Positions 1 through 17,051 of a DNA stretch of 64,000 nt are shown here, piece after piece. The stretch covers positions 124,001 to 188,000 of the forward strand of contig NZ_PXZT01000004.1 in NCBI RefSeq assembly GCF_003008695.1, in the 5' to 3' direction. This stretch comes from Trichococcus alkaliphilus. GTDB taxonomy: Bacteria; Bacillota; Bacilli; Lactobacillales; Aerococcaceae. Numbering within the stretch: the first letter of the stretch is position 1; each line of letters opens with the position of its first letter. A program made the position numbers and the translations under genes. The notes under the pieces are model-generated. The model did not search any database, was not told where the DNA came from, and saw nothing but the letters and a program-made list of their open reading frames with translations.

Positions 1-2
1 CA

Positions 3-248
3 GGCTTCATTCCTCAAGTTTTGGACACGGCTGTATTCGACGGCGTATTCCAGGTTTCAAGTGAAGAAGCTTTCGAAATGACCCGCAGATTGGCCAAAGA
101 AGAAGGCATTCTTGTGGGAATCTCCAGCGGTGCGGCAGTAGCAGGAGCCATCGCTTTGGCTGGTCAACTTGGTGCAGGCAAGTCGGTAGTGACGATTGCA
201 CCGGACAATGGCGAAAGATACCTTTCCACACCAGTATTTCAAAATTAA
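3..248 (+). CDS. cysK: Cysteine synthase, C-terminal part (cut by window edge)
   Basis: The reading frame is open from the left edge to a TAA at 246-248, so only the last 81 or so residues are present. The segment GISSGAAVAGAI followed by VTIAPDNGERYLST is the conserved C-terminal part of PLP-dependent O-acetylserine sulfhydrylase (CysK family), which makes cysteine from O-acetylserine and sulfide in the cytoplasm. The PLP lysine and N-terminal domain lie outside the window. A strong terminator follows at once, so this is the last gene of its transcript. Cystathionine beta-synthase-like members share this tail, so CysK is the likeliest rather than the only reading. Confidence 0.9.
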   Translation, partial: GFIPQVLDTAVFDGVFQVSSEEAFEMTRRLAKEEGILVGISSGAAVAGAIALAGQLGAGKSVVTIAPDNGERYLSTPVFQN

Positions 249-268
249 GCAATATACCGAATAATGAT

Positions 269-318
269 AGTGCCCCAACCACAGCAGGAGCTGTTCCTGT
301 GGTTGGGGCACTTTTTTT
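269..318 (+). terminator. Rho-independent terminator after cysK
   Basis: A 16-bp stem (269-284 with 297-312, core GTGCCCCAACCACAG) is followed by seven or more T. It ends the cysK transcript and separates it from the polysaccharide cluster. Confidence 0.9.
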
Positions 319-485
319 GCGCGCTAGATTTGGTGGCAGCTTATATTTGTGTATGTTTCGCTACTTTTTTTCCGCAATTCTTCGTATGGATTTCGAGGAA
401 ATGAGGGGGTGCGTTCTTTTAAAATGGAATCAGAACAAGAAAAGGAGCAACGGTTGGCCGGACTGAAAAATTAGGAGGCGTCAAT

Positions 486-8280: not shown

Positions 8281-10641
8281 ATGAAAAAATTGCGTAAAGT
8301 CAAATCTCAATGGTGTGCCGTTATGGTTTGCGGTCTGTCCGCAGCCATGCTGACCGCGGCACCGGCACCCTCAGTTTTTGCGGAAACTACCGGAGCGAAT
8401 GCAAGCAGCACCATCGGGAGCGAGTCGTCCCAAACAGAAACACCGGATATGATCGAGCAATCATCCATCCTCTATGAGGATACAGACAAAGCTGCTGATG
8501 TTCCGCCATCGGATAACGCTTCGGAAGCACCTGAAGAAGTGGTGCCTGCAAGCAACGAGGGCATCCCTCCAGTGACCGGATTGATACCAGATGTTACCAA
8601 AGCCGACCCTCAACCAAGCGCTGCCACTCCGCTTGAGCCTGCATCCGCAGTGGAAATGAATGCAGCGGCTGTTACGACACTACCCGAAGTGAAGGACAGT
8701 TCTTCTGACGTTGCCGTTTCCTACACAGCTGTCATTGCAAAAGGGGACTTTACGCTCGACAGTCTGCCTTGGGGCTACTCAGGCTATGCATTCCGCTACA
8801 TGACGAACGATTTTGTAGGTCAAAAAATCGAGGTGATCAGAGAATCGCAGAACAGTCTTTACGCATTGGCAGTGCTGAACGGAGAAAAGTTGGGTTGGGT
8901 CGACAAGCGCGCCTTATCCGATATTGTCATCATCCCTAAGGTACAGGACCTTGCTTCAGCGATTGCCGTTGATTACACTGCACGCATCAGCAGGACAGAT
9001 TTTTCGATTGATAGTCTTCCTTGGGGCTACGCTGGCTATATGTATATGGGAACGAGCACAGCTTATTTGGATCAGAAAATACAGGCTGAAAAAGAAACCG
9101 CAAATGGTCAGTACGTGCTGATTTCCCTCAATGGAGAAAAGTTGGGTTGGATCGACAAGCGCGCTCTGTCGGACATCTACAGTCAGCCTAAAGTGCAGGA
9201 TATTGCCTCAGCGTTGACGGTGGACTATGCTGCCCGAATCGGCGCAGCCGGCTTTTCCATCGACAGTTTACCGTGGGGCTATGCCGGATATGCCCAAATG
9301 ACAACAAGTTCGGCTTACTTGAATCAAAGCGTACAGGCAGTCCAGGAGACCGCCAACGGCCTCTATGCGCTGATCGCTCAGAACGGCAACAGATTGGGGT
9401 GGATCGACAAACGGGCACTGACGGATATCTATGTCGAACCCAAAGTACAGGAGCTGGCGACGGGGATACCAGTGGATTATAAAGCAACGATAGCAGCAGC
9501 CGGATTTTCTATAGACAGCTTGCCTTGGGGCTATGCCGGATATGGGCAAATCGACAACACCAGCAACCATACTGGAGAGCGCATCCAAGCTGTCCAAGAG
9601 TCGCCGAACGGCCTTTATGTTTTGATTTCTTCCAACGGGACCCGATTGGGATGGGTCGATAAGCGAGCCCTTAGCGATGTCGCCATTCCACCAAAAGTCC
9701 AGGATGTAGCTTCTGCGGTCGTAGTTGCCTATACAGCAGCCATCACTTCACCGGGTTATTCGATTGACAGTCTGCCATGGGGTTACGCTGGCTATCAACT
9801 GATGGCCACTTCAACCGATTACCTGGGACAACGGGTTGAGGCTGTGAAAGAGACAGCCAACAGAGCGTATGTGCTGCTTTCGCTGAACGGTAAAAAAATC
9901 GGTTGGATTGACAAGAAAGCTTTAGGGGATTTCAGCTACCGATCACAAGCACAGAATATTTCCGGAGGAACCATCGTGAACTACTCACCGACAATCGCGA
10001 AGGCCGGTTTTTCGGTCGACACGTTACCTTGGGGCTATCCCGGCTACCAGTGGCGGACGAGCACGGACAGCTATGTCGGACAGCAAGTCGATGCGGTAAA
10101 GGAATCAGCTGATGGTCATTACGTCCTGATTTCCCTGAACGGCAACTACATCGGTTGGGTGGACAAAGCGGCACTATCAGGATTGCCGACCTATGCAAAA
10201 GGTCCGGACTGGACAGTGATCAACGGGTATTTCCGCAGCATGTCCGGAGTCAATTACTACATTGGCAACAGCTACATCATCGTCAGCTTGAGCCAACAAA
10301 GCGTCTGGGCCTATAAAGGCGAGACGATGCTCGTTTCCGCTCCGGTCATCACCGGCAAACCATCAGCCAATAACGCTACGCCGCGAGGCTTGTTCTATAT
10401 CCAGCCGTTTAAACAATCGCCATCGGTCCTGATCGGCGAGGACTATGCTTCGCCTGTCAGCTTCTGGATACCATTTGTGGGCAACTCGGTCGGTTTGCAC
10501 GATTCGCCTTGGCAGACGCATGGCTATGGCGGTGATATCTACCTCTACTATGGTTCGCACGGTTGCGTCAACACACCGTATGAAGCGGTCCGGACGTTGT
10601 ATTACAGTTATCCGGTCGGGACACCAGTCGTAGTCTATTAA
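8281..10641 (+). CDS. Secreted L,D-transpeptidase with six GW modules
   Basis: The 786-residue product opens with a signal peptide (MKKLRKVKSQW, hydrophobic run, likely cleavage near SVFA-ETT at residue 35), a Pro/Ser/Glu-rich spacer to about 140, then six modules of about 80 residues, each with DSLPWGY...GY and LGW[IV]DK. The last 135 residues are a YkuD domain with SHGCVNTP: His760 and Cys762 are the catalytic site that forms 3-3 peptidoglycan crosslinks or attaches proteins to peptides. GW modules bind lipoteichoic acid, as in InlB and Ami. This is a wall-bound crosslinking or hydrolytic enzyme held by non-covalent repeats. Monocistronic with its own promoter and terminator. Confidence 0.93.
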   Translation: MKKLRKVKSQWCAVMVCGLSAAMLTAAPAPSVFAETTGANASSTIGSESSQTETPDMIEQSSILYEDTDKAADVPPSDNASEAPEEVVPASNEGIPPVTGLIPDVTKADPQPSAATPLEPASAVEMNAAAVTTLPEVKDSSSDVAVSYTAVIAKGDFTLDSLPWGYSGYAFRYMTNDFVGQKIEVIRESQNSLYALAVLNGEKLGWVDKRALSDIVIIPKVQDLASAIAVDYTARISRTDFSIDSLPWGYAGYMYMGTSTAYLDQKIQAEKETANGQYVLISLNGEKLGWIDKRALSDIYSQPKVQDIASALTVDYAARIGAAGFSIDSLPWGYAGYAQMTTSSAYLNQSVQAVQETANGLYALIAQNGNRLGWIDKRALTDIYVEPKVQELATGIPVDYKATIAAAGFSIDSLPWGYAGYGQIDNTSNHTGERIQAVQESPNGLYVLISSNGTRLGWVDKRALSDVAIPPKVQDVASAVVVAYTAAITSPGYSIDSLPWGYAGYQLMATSTDYLGQRVEAVKETANRAYVLLSLNGKKIGWIDKKALGDFSYRSQAQNISGGTIVNYSPTIAKAGFSVDTLPWGYPGYQWRTSTDSYVGQQVDAVKESADGHYVLISLNGNYIGWVDKAALSGLPTYAKGPDWTVINGYFRSMSGVNYYIGNSYIIVSLSQQSVWAYKGETMLVSAPVITGKPSANNATPRGLFYIQPFKQSPSVLIGEDYASPVSFWIPFVGNSVGLHDSPWQTHGYGGDIYLYYGSHGCVNTPYEAVRTLYYSYPVGTPVVVY
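8700..10190 (+). repeat. Six tandem GW-module coding repeats (about 245 bp each)
   Basis: Units start near 8700, 8940, 9185, 9430, 9695 and 9940. Each encodes an alternating strand pattern with a central SLPWGY motif and a final GW-x-DK. Nucleotide divergence between units is considerable, so this is an old array and not a recent expansion. Confidence 0.85.
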
Positions 10642-15311: not shown

Positions 15312-15323
15312 CTTCAATCCTGA

Positions 15324-15362
15324 CCAGTCGCCGCCCAATAGTGGTGACTGGTTTTTTTTTCG
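15324..15362 (+). terminator. Rho-independent terminator after nifJ
   Basis: Stem CCAGTCGCC (15324-15332) with GGTGACTGG (15343-15351), then about ten T. Confidence 0.9.
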
Positions 15363-15487
15363 CATTCAGGCAATCATCCAAAGTTGCGACTGCGTCCCTA
15401 ATGTTTTGAGAAAAGCGACCATGAAGGATATAATGGAGGAAAGAAAGCGTTTTTTTAAAAGGTCTTCAAAGGAAGCGAGGATGCGTC

Positions 15488-16744
15488 ATGACGGCAGAAG
15501 TAGGGATATTGAACGCAAACGGATTGGTCCTGGCGGCTGATTCCGCTCTGACGATGGGGAACAGCGAACAAATGAAAATATTCAATTCTGGCAATAAGAT
15601 TTTTTCGCTTGGACCGACCCACTCGATCGGCATCATGATGTTCGGGAATGTACAATTCATGGGGATTCCATGGGAAATTATCGTAACAGGCTTCCATCAG
15701 AAAATCGGGGACCGGCCATTGGATTCGGTCTGGGATTACTGTACGGAATTCTTCAATTATTTAGAAAGTGTGGATGAAATCTACTCCACAATCTTTACCG
15801 AAGTGCTCATCATCGGATATGCGGAGAATGTCAGCAATATTTTGGAGAATACGACTTACATCCCTTCACCCGGGGCATTCACTCTGGCCGATTACCAAAA
15901 AGCTGTCGAGGGAAAGATTCCGGCGTTGTTGAAAGAAAGCGAGAAAATGAAGAGCATCACCAAAAAGGCGCCGATCAAAGTTTTCTCTGACCTTTACGGG
16001 GAGAAGCTGGACGAGGTTTTTAAGGAGCTTTTCGATACCGTGTTCTTGGGCTTGAACCTCTACGATAAATTCAAGACGGATCTGTATAAAATCGTGCGGA
16101 ATTATGTATATAGCGACAGTTATTATCCCGACACGTACTCCGGACTGGTGATTGCCGGCTTCGGCTACAGTGAGCTGTTCCCCAGCATTTACCAGTACGA
16201 CATAGCCGGCGTCGTCGATAGAGTGATCAAAAAACGGCTGACTGTGCGCCAGATCGTGATGAATGATTTCGCCGAAGACAGATGTTCCTCGGCCATTGTC
16301 CCGTTTGCGCAGCAGGATATGGTACATACGGTCATTAACGGCATAGCGCCGGATCTGGAAGCTGACCTCGGGGAATTGCTCCGCGCCACGCTTGAAAAAT
16401 TTGTTTCGGAACTGACGGAGAAAAAGTTATTGAAGGAAAACGACGCTTCGGAAATCAACAAACTGAAGGCGACGCTGATCGAATCGGGCCTTAATGCCTT
16501 CGAAAACATGAAACAGGAACGGCATTTGACCCCCGTATTGATGACGATCGATTCGATGCCGAAGGAGGAACTCGCTCTGATTGCGGAGACGTTGGTCAAC
16601 ATCACTTCCTTCAAAGGGAAAATTTCCTTTTCCATGGAAACGGTCGGCGGACCGATCGATGTGCTCTTGATTACGAAAGGCGACGGCCCGGTCTGGGTCA
16701 AGCGTAAGAACTACTTCAATCCCGATATCAATCGCCTGCGCTGA
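15488..16744 (+). CDS. Large proteasome-fold (Ntn-hydrolase-like) protein, function unknown
   Basis: The 418-residue product starts MTAEVGILNANGLVLAADSA. If the initiator Met is removed, Thr becomes residue 1 and the Asp of AADS becomes residue 17, exactly the proteasome beta/HslV numbering, with NKIF (Lys36 on that count) near the usual Lys33. Further on (about residues 220-240), SGLVIAGFGYSELFPSIYQYD resembles the G-x-x-x-x-x-P-x-[LI]Y-x-x-[DE] strand region of proteasome beta subunits. Between them is an insertion of about 100 residues (helical, Lys/Glu-rich), and a C-terminal extension follows. That makes it nearly twice the usual 200-250 residues. No signal peptide, no regulatory ATPase nearby. 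I infer an N-terminal-nucleophile hydrolase; substrate, oligomer and autoprocessing are unknown. It follows the nifJ terminator and precedes a small HTH gene. Confidence 0.75.
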   Translation: MTAEVGILNANGLVLAADSALTMGNSEQMKIFNSGNKIFSLGPTHSIGIMMFGNVQFMGIPWEIIVTGFHQKIGDRPLDSVWDYCTEFFNYLESVDEIYSTIFTEVLIIGYAENVSNILENTTYIPSPGAFTLADYQKAVEGKIPALLKESEKMKSITKKAPIKVFSDLYGEKLDEVFKELFDTVFLGLNLYDKFKTDLYKIVRNYVYSDSYYPDTYSGLVIAGFGYSELFPSIYQYDIAGVVDRVIKKRLTVRQIVMNDFAEDRCSSAIVPFAQQDMVHTVINGIAPDLEADLGELLRATLEKFVSELTEKKLLKENDASEINKLKATLIESGLNAFENMKQERHLTPVLMTIDSMPKEELALIAETLVNITSFKGKISFSMETVGGPIDVLLITKGDGPVWVKRKNYFNPDINRLR

Positions 16745-16820: not shown

Positions 16821-17051
16821 ATGTATTTGAATATTCAAGAAACGGCCGACTATCTGGAAGTGCCGGTCAGTGAAATCCATCGTTTGATCCGCGAGCGCCA
16901 AATCCGCACAATTTGCGTGGATGATGATATACTGCTGAACCGCAATCAGTTCAATTTTTTCATTGAACAAAGGGAAAAGTACAAACACGAATTGGAGGCC
17001 TATTTGAATACGCCGCTTCCGGAAGATCCCGACATCAAGGACGAGGATTGA
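16821..17051 (+). CDS. Excisionase-type helix-turn-helix protein
   Basis: ATG 16821 is chosen for AAGGGTG 5-6 nt upstream; in-frame ATGs at 16788 and 16806 lack ribosome sites. The 76-residue product begins MYLNIQETADYLEVPVSEIH, the winged/MerR-like HTH_17 fold of excisionase-family proteins (IQETADYLxVPxxxIHRLIRERQI), then a charged helix and an acidic tail. Such proteins bind DNA as small regulators or recombination directionality factors. No integrase is adjacent; the nearest recombinase gene is 10.6 kb away. It lies 76 nt after the proteasome-fold gene and may be co-transcribed with it. Confidence 0.75.
   Translation: MYLNIQETADYLEVPVSEIHRLIRERQIRTICVDDDILLNRNQFNFFIEQREKYKHELEAYLNTPLPEDPDIKDED

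Follow-up and report, generated by a model that had tools for sequence, protein, structure and literature searches.

The open reading frame at positions 15488-16744 (plus strand) of the window, i.e., the whole 64,000 nt stretch of Trichococcus alkaliphilus DNA analyzed here, was confirmed as a real gene that encodes a proteasome-like Ntn hydrolase of 418 aa. The translated aa sequence begins MTAEVGILNANGLVLAADSAL, and a GAGGA stretch is found 5′ of the start codon. A promoter-like sequence, TTGAGA-17-TATAAT, is present at 15406-15434 (+) and matches 11 of 12 consensus positions; two such sites occur in the stretch, with 2.5 expected by chance. A terminator-like stem loop of 13 base pairs lies 3′ of the upstream gene at 15322-15353 (+), one of four sites in the stretch where 2.0 are expected. 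The neighboring genes encode a 1179 aa oxidoreductase, which we take to be of the pyruvate:ferredoxin type, a 76 aa HTH_17/excisionase-like protein at 16821-17051 (+) that is below the cut-offs of both libraries, Pfam included, and a hydrophobic protein that matches no family. No HslU, ClpX or Anbu gene is present among these neighbors, as the initial annotation had also stated. A separate PF00227 match above cut-off is found elsewhere in the same genome, in a 175 aa frame. At 8281-10641 the window also encodes a 786 aa protein with a signal-like start and six similar repeats of ~80 residues; its C-terminal motif is presumably an L,D-transpeptidase-like end.

The phrog_5990 profile matches residues 1-416 of the 418 (E 1.8e-92), and PHROG gives no function for it. 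The enzyme family is thus already known but uncharacterized, and the proposal that the protein may represent an undescribed group does not hold; proteasome homologs with multiple insertions (PMI) are described in Fuchs et al. 2021 (PMC8665760). A PDB search with the single sequence of the window protein returned no match. Profile comparison with the proteasome beta families, by which the initial annotation had proposed to check the protein, linked it weakly to the proteasome: PF00227 scored 16.7 bits over residues 5-53, under its cut-off of 22.4, and the top PDB matches of a profile of ten relatives were beta chains of archaeal proteasomes, at a weak E of 0.005. In the latter alignment Thr2 falls on Thr1, Asp18 on position 17 (Glu in that chain) and Lys37 on Lys33, and VGGPIDV is aligned to SGGMIDV. 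The family signature ETVGGPIDV..G.VW..RK.YF (residues 384-410; 16637-16717, +), which matches SGGMIDVAVI of the archaeal proteasome beta, forms the last core strands.

A total of 91 relatives (11 from genome contigs and the best 80 of 149 viral relatives) were clustered together with the window protein at 80% identity, which gave 56 representatives. Thr2 (15491-15493, +), Asp18 (15539-15541, +) and Lys37 (15596-15598, +), which become Thr1, Asp17 and Lys33 in proteasome numbering after Met removal, are invariant in 56/56. The Thr1/Asp17/Lys pattern noted earlier is therefore intact, and the Lys that had been placed only in the right region is Lys37. Asn9, Ser19, Val386, Gly387, Asp391 and Trp403 are likewise found in all 56. 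A Thr codon directly follows the start codon in 91 of the 91 genes, and in 12 of these a stop codon lies immediately upstream; thus this is an Ntn family without a propeptide. Removal of Met would expose Thr1 as the putative nucleophile, and the invariance of the triad, together with the fold, suggests that Asp17 and Lys33 would activate it.

Asp166 and Ser169 of the proteasome are second-shell catalytic helpers. The position of Ser169 is occupied by Val386 in all 56 representatives, and residue 383, at the Asp166 position, is variable among them. Thus the chemistry may differ from that of the proteasome. Gly53, which closes strand 47-53 and is Gly in 47/56, is the putative oxyanion Gly (proteasome Gly47), an equivalence made by strand position only.

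An AlphaFold2 model of the window protein as a monomer, built from the 56 representative sequences, has a mean pLDDT of 90.8 and a pTM of 0.88. A Foldseek search with the model found proteasome subunits, the best at E 1e-4 (rmsd 15.9 for the gapped alignment, TM 0.57 by target length). With VIA-align applied to the Foldseek matches, yeast beta5 aligned with a Z of 17.9 and an rmsd of 3.2 over 185 residues, and Anbu with a Z of 17.5. Thr2 of the model superposes on Thr1 of yeast beta5. In a viral structure library there was one match at E <= 0.001, a 219 aa phage protein named ‘proteasome beta type-2’. Since residues 1..192 of yeast beta5 align across 2..408 of the model, the window protein is predicted to be a single proteasome-beta domain with the alpha-beta-beta-alpha fold. 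The proteasome-fold Ntn hydrolase of the initial annotation is upheld in this respect, with both the predicted fold and the conserved triad found. A double size in the sense of two proteasome units was not confirmed; two fused proteasome domains are ruled out, as the model and the structural alignment show one domain.

In the model, the extra length is made up of two helical insertions. The first, at residues ~95-217 (15770-16138, +), extends from H1/H2 to strand 218-224, contains helices at 101-207 and measures 108-142 aa in the 56 representatives. The second, at residues ~286-360 (16343-16567, +), joins H3 to H4, has helices at 288-356 and measures 52-84 aa. The second strand motif previously pointed out near residue 220 does exist as strand 218-224, but it belongs to the core of the same domain and is pushed along by a helical insertion of ~125 residues. 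With its 418 aa the protein does differ in length from HslV, Anbu and BPH.

Relatives are found on both genome contigs and mobile elements. Nine of 11 related genome-contig loci match at 94-96%, eight from Trichococcus and one labelled Sedimentibacter. The phrog_5990 profile detects the family in 13/13 Trichococcus genomes and in 0/63 other genomes of the family group. Across the class (presumably Bacilli), eight genomes out of 398 carry a match, one of the eight being the window's own genome; in the phylum to which the Anaerolineae locus belongs the count is 14 of 301, with weak fragments among the matches. The viral scans covered the best 80 of 149, the best 80 of 178 and the best 80 of 96 relatives. 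Relatives are present in 13 phage records (nine Streptococcus satellites or prophages, two Stenotrophomonas, one Providencia and one Porphyromonas), and in 10 plasmid records. Among 5426 E. coli genomes, 22 show a partial match at the DNA level.

Several members depart from the usual form. Three 320 aa relatives from the phylum of the Anaerolineae locus (L123, L124 and L131) are without the first insertion and keep the small downstream gene described below; one genome with a 320 aa relative (G444) also carries the long form. In L122/L130 (G416:C1:601726-604071) an additional, very long insertion divides the family match within an open frame of 897 aa. An in-frame TAG occurs near the C-terminus of the family member L120 (G653:C41:69420-70667), and the small ORF still follows.

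Two of the 22 E. coli regions were examined and both are prophages. In one the enzyme gene is located between a methyltransferase and an antiterminator, and in the other it adjoins an HTH gene near a repressor. The enzyme gene is near the end of a satellite and is 3′ of the endolysin in a Streptococcus prophage. In the Porphyromonas phage it is inside the portal-to-tail run and on the same strand, which is not a cargo position. The neighbor scan comprised 99 of 102 proteins, the three excluded (L066, L073 and L086) overlying the small ORF itself. Among the matches listed, repressors, regulators, Q-like antiterminators and endolysins are the most frequent, and the largest family accounts for 7/99. 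A comparison of the enzyme with PADLOC gave nothing convincing (best E 0.016). For the 99 neighbor proteins the PADLOC matches listed include RmrA (3), capH (3), HTH_VI (2), capP (1) and one methyltransferase. RmrA is an HTH-peptidase, and its matches may therefore be plain repressors. Thus no consistent defense signal is present among these 99 proteins. No AAA+ gene is annotated beside the enzyme gene in the window or in the phage and prophage regions examined.

Outside of Trichococcus, the enzyme gene is nearly always followed by a small ORF. Of the 55 representatives from outside the genus, 53 could be counted, as the contig ends at the gene in L057 and L068. In 52 of these 53, a frame of 34-81 aa starts between -35 and +60 nt from the enzyme stop codon. 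As a control, stop-to-stop frames of at least 250 aa on both strands of the same loci were scored, and 117/334 (35%) have such a small ORF (Fisher p 4e-20); because these are stop-to-stop frames from both strands, some may not be genes. In shuffled sequence, an ORF of at least 30 aa with no upper limit was found for 21.6/53, with a maximum of 29 in 100 rounds, compared with the 52 observed; it should be noted that the 34-81 aa limits were chosen after this count. L044, the only one of the 53 without the small ORF, itself ends in a basic C-terminal tail and is 465 aa long.

The small ORF is also found after enzyme members on genome contigs and after the three 320 aa relatives. In clusters fetched later, from which the shortened L330 was dropped, it is present by the same rule in 25/25. 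The careful figure is 22/25, because L278, L311 and L339 are doubtful (the L339 ORF is a frameshifted enzyme tail). Nine annotated records were examined, one of which is cut at the gene, and the other 8/8 have the small gene; five of the 8 list it as a hypothetical protein, and the two E. coli records leave it unannotated. In 17/17 overlapping pairs pS (0.42-1.07) exceeds pN (0.15-0.50), although the pairs share members and are not independent. These values show purifying selection on the small partner gene.

A profile of 14 partners gave five matches in the 398 genomes of the class. Two belong to the training set, two lie beside family genes that were not used in training (G392 and G383, the latter ~400 nt downstream), and the fifth, in a 280 aa frame, is probably due to chance. 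Seven further genomes of the class carry the enzyme, and the profile hit four of them and missed G092, G102 and G390; G092 and G102 have a small ORF by position, and the enzyme match in G390 is a fragment. In G383 the enzyme and the small partner gene are parted by ~400 nt without long ORFs (L179:10694-11095; G383:C23:54693-55094), part of which resembles Bacillaceae-1 RNA on the minus strand at 34.7 bits (cut-off 35).

The 61 partners examined are Lys-rich (14% K), have a median length of 58 aa and vary widely in sequence. In 11/12 pairs the enzyme is the better conserved of the two, e.g., 78% vs 48% for the partner, although in two of the 11 the difference is at most 3 points. An aromatic/Pro motif, defined by a regular expression picked after viewing the data, is found in 27/61 partners compared with 2.9 in shuffles. 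A model of one partner, built from 9 sequences, has a mean pLDDT of 68.2. It shows a helix at 34-54, in which the best block of ten residues reaches 92; the rest is modeled with low confidence. By this model the small protein is probably mostly disordered, with a C-terminal helix. Scans of 14 partners produced a best E of 0.049 with Pfam and of 0.0083 with PHROGs, each for one member only. No publication on the small partner or on the function of the enzyme was found in the open-access literature searched. Within that scope, both the partner gene and the core version without a partner, described next, are new.

Trichococcus differs from the mobile members. The enzyme gene is present in all 13 Trichococcus genomes, with a dN/dS of 0.040-0.066 in nine comparisons (the tenth, with G005, is saturated), and these ratios indicate strong purifying selection on the enzyme. 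In the window, as in the further Trichococcus members examined, the HTH gene is the only small ORF found 3′ of the enzyme. The initial annotation could not have seen the partner gene, since it is not found in this genus. A partner encoded in trans was sought with the profile in the 13 genomes, and no match was convincing: the four at E <= 5 (E 0.08-0.7) are inside frames of 156-622 aa, and a partner that has diverged too far may be missed by the profile.

The HTH gene at 16821-17051 was also considered as the partner. It occurs in 17 of the 63 other genomes of the family group, all 63 of which are without the Ntn gene, and in G005 the HTH and Ntn genes are ~88 kb apart on one contig. The HTH gene is an unrelated bystander. 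The G005 enzyme is 66% identical. Its gene precedes that of the oxidoreductase, and a transporter-like gene separates the two, whereas in the window the enzyme gene is downstream. Trichococcus retains a conserved chromosomal enzyme gene without a recognizable partner. Because the partner is missing there, the enzyme can work without it, or with something else.

On balance we lean towards a Thr-dependent specific protease or transpeptidase, single-domain and PMI-4-like, that on mobile elements would form a two-gene cassette with the small Lys-rich protein and that in Trichococcus would act without a recognizable partner. The enzyme would probably be a monomer or small oligomer of narrow specificity and not a general degradation barrel. 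Rings are probably not formed, because both insertions sit where beta subunits would pack in rings. The pairing of the two genes is observed, and the small protein would most likely be a dedicated regulator, adaptor or substrate of the enzyme. Prophages and satellites bear the cassette mostly at cargo positions, perhaps for a benefit such as defense or superinfection control. More tentatively, prophages, satellites, plasmids and genome contigs may carry an unrecognized system of two genes, in which the enzyme would be activated by, cleave or ligate the small companion (Pup-like or tag-like, or an inhibitor) for phage-host conflict; in Trichococcus the enzyme would have been domesticated without the companion.

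The enzyme might instead be a connectase-like protein ligase, in which Thr1 and a dedicated motif would form an acyl intermediate; the substrate that is ligated or processed would be the small Lys-rich protein, i.e., a tag. Connectase is described in PMC8665760 as a proteasome homolog that is monomeric, has a helical insertion and acts as a ligase, and the Lys content of the partners, their aromatic/Pro motif and the one helix with a well-scored core in the partner model are in keeping with such a role. However the insertion of connectase is at a different site according to the same source, the motif is found in less than half of the partners, and the Trichococcus enzyme has no recognizable partner. 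We regard a ligase of this kind as unlikely. A toxin-antitoxin-like pair should also be considered, in which the small protein would inhibit a harmful protease, the enzyme, and the two would act jointly in phage exclusion. A two-gene cassette, the lower conservation of the partner and the occurrence on prophages, satellites and plasmids would all suit such a pair. Neither the intact enzyme without a recognizable partner in 13/13 Trichococcus genomes nor the small number of defense neighbors would be expected of it, and we regard such a pair as unlikely too.

The proteasome fold, the full triad and the lack of an annotated adjacent AAA+ gene would also be consistent with an ordinary protease that forms rings and relies on a housekeeping unfoldase, in which case the small ORF would have no part in its work. 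This is quite unlikely, as Fuchs et al. (PMC8665760) argue that insertions at both sites could prevent rings or double rings, although they allow that the first could also point outwards, and the small ORF follows 52/53 enzyme genes, compared with 35% of controls, and is under purifying selection. The small ORF might also be no partner and simply result from the dense packing of phage genes, as the 35% of other long ORFs with such a neighbor and the widely varying sequences might suggest. This is very improbable given the 52/53, its presence behind genome-contig members, the purifying selection, and the profile matches next to two family genes not used in training, in one case at a distance of ~400 nt and with no long ORF in between.

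Returning to the paired protease or transpeptidase, PMI-type homologs were without known function in 2021, and PMC8665760 reports no informative gene context for them; a near-universal small partner is thus a first handle. Binding, cleavage, ligation or inhibition becomes directly testable with two proteins. The pairing also separates the mobile, partnered enzymes from the Trichococcus core version, which is solo. Should the pair have a role in phage-host conflict, a proteasome-derived enzyme would be added to that field.

Comparison with known systems places the window protein as follows. It has in common with the 20S proteasome beta subunit (PF00227) the fold, Thr1/Asp17/Lys33 and the GGxIDV strand, but is about twice as long, has no propeptide, gives a weak sequence match and has Val in place of Ser169. 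HslV of HslVU is a compact subunit encoded beside HslU, whereas the window protein has 418 aa and no adjacent AAA+ gene. The fold is also common to Anbu, and neither protein has a propeptide (for Anbu, as given in PMC8665760); however the solved Anbu chains have 231-236 residues, a C-terminal coiled-coil helix is described for Anbu in the same source, and no Anbu gene cluster is found at the window locus. Connectase has a proteasome-like fold and a helical insertion in common with the window protein, which may be a monomer too, but connectase is archaeal and carries the insertion elsewhere (PMC8665760).

PMC8665760 gives the positions after H1/H2 and between H3 and H4 as the joint insertion sites of PMI-3 and PMI-4, and its text and Table 1 present PMI-4 as a large group that is also found in phages and Firmicutes. 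PMI-4, and PMI-3, have the same beta core, the Thr1/Asp17/Lys33 triad and both insertion sites, and occur in bacteria and some archaea; PMI-4 occurs in phages, as is the case here, a comparison made by architecture and distribution and not by sequence. By these two features the modeled window protein appears to be PMI-4-like. With respect to that published account, the small partner gene is described here only.
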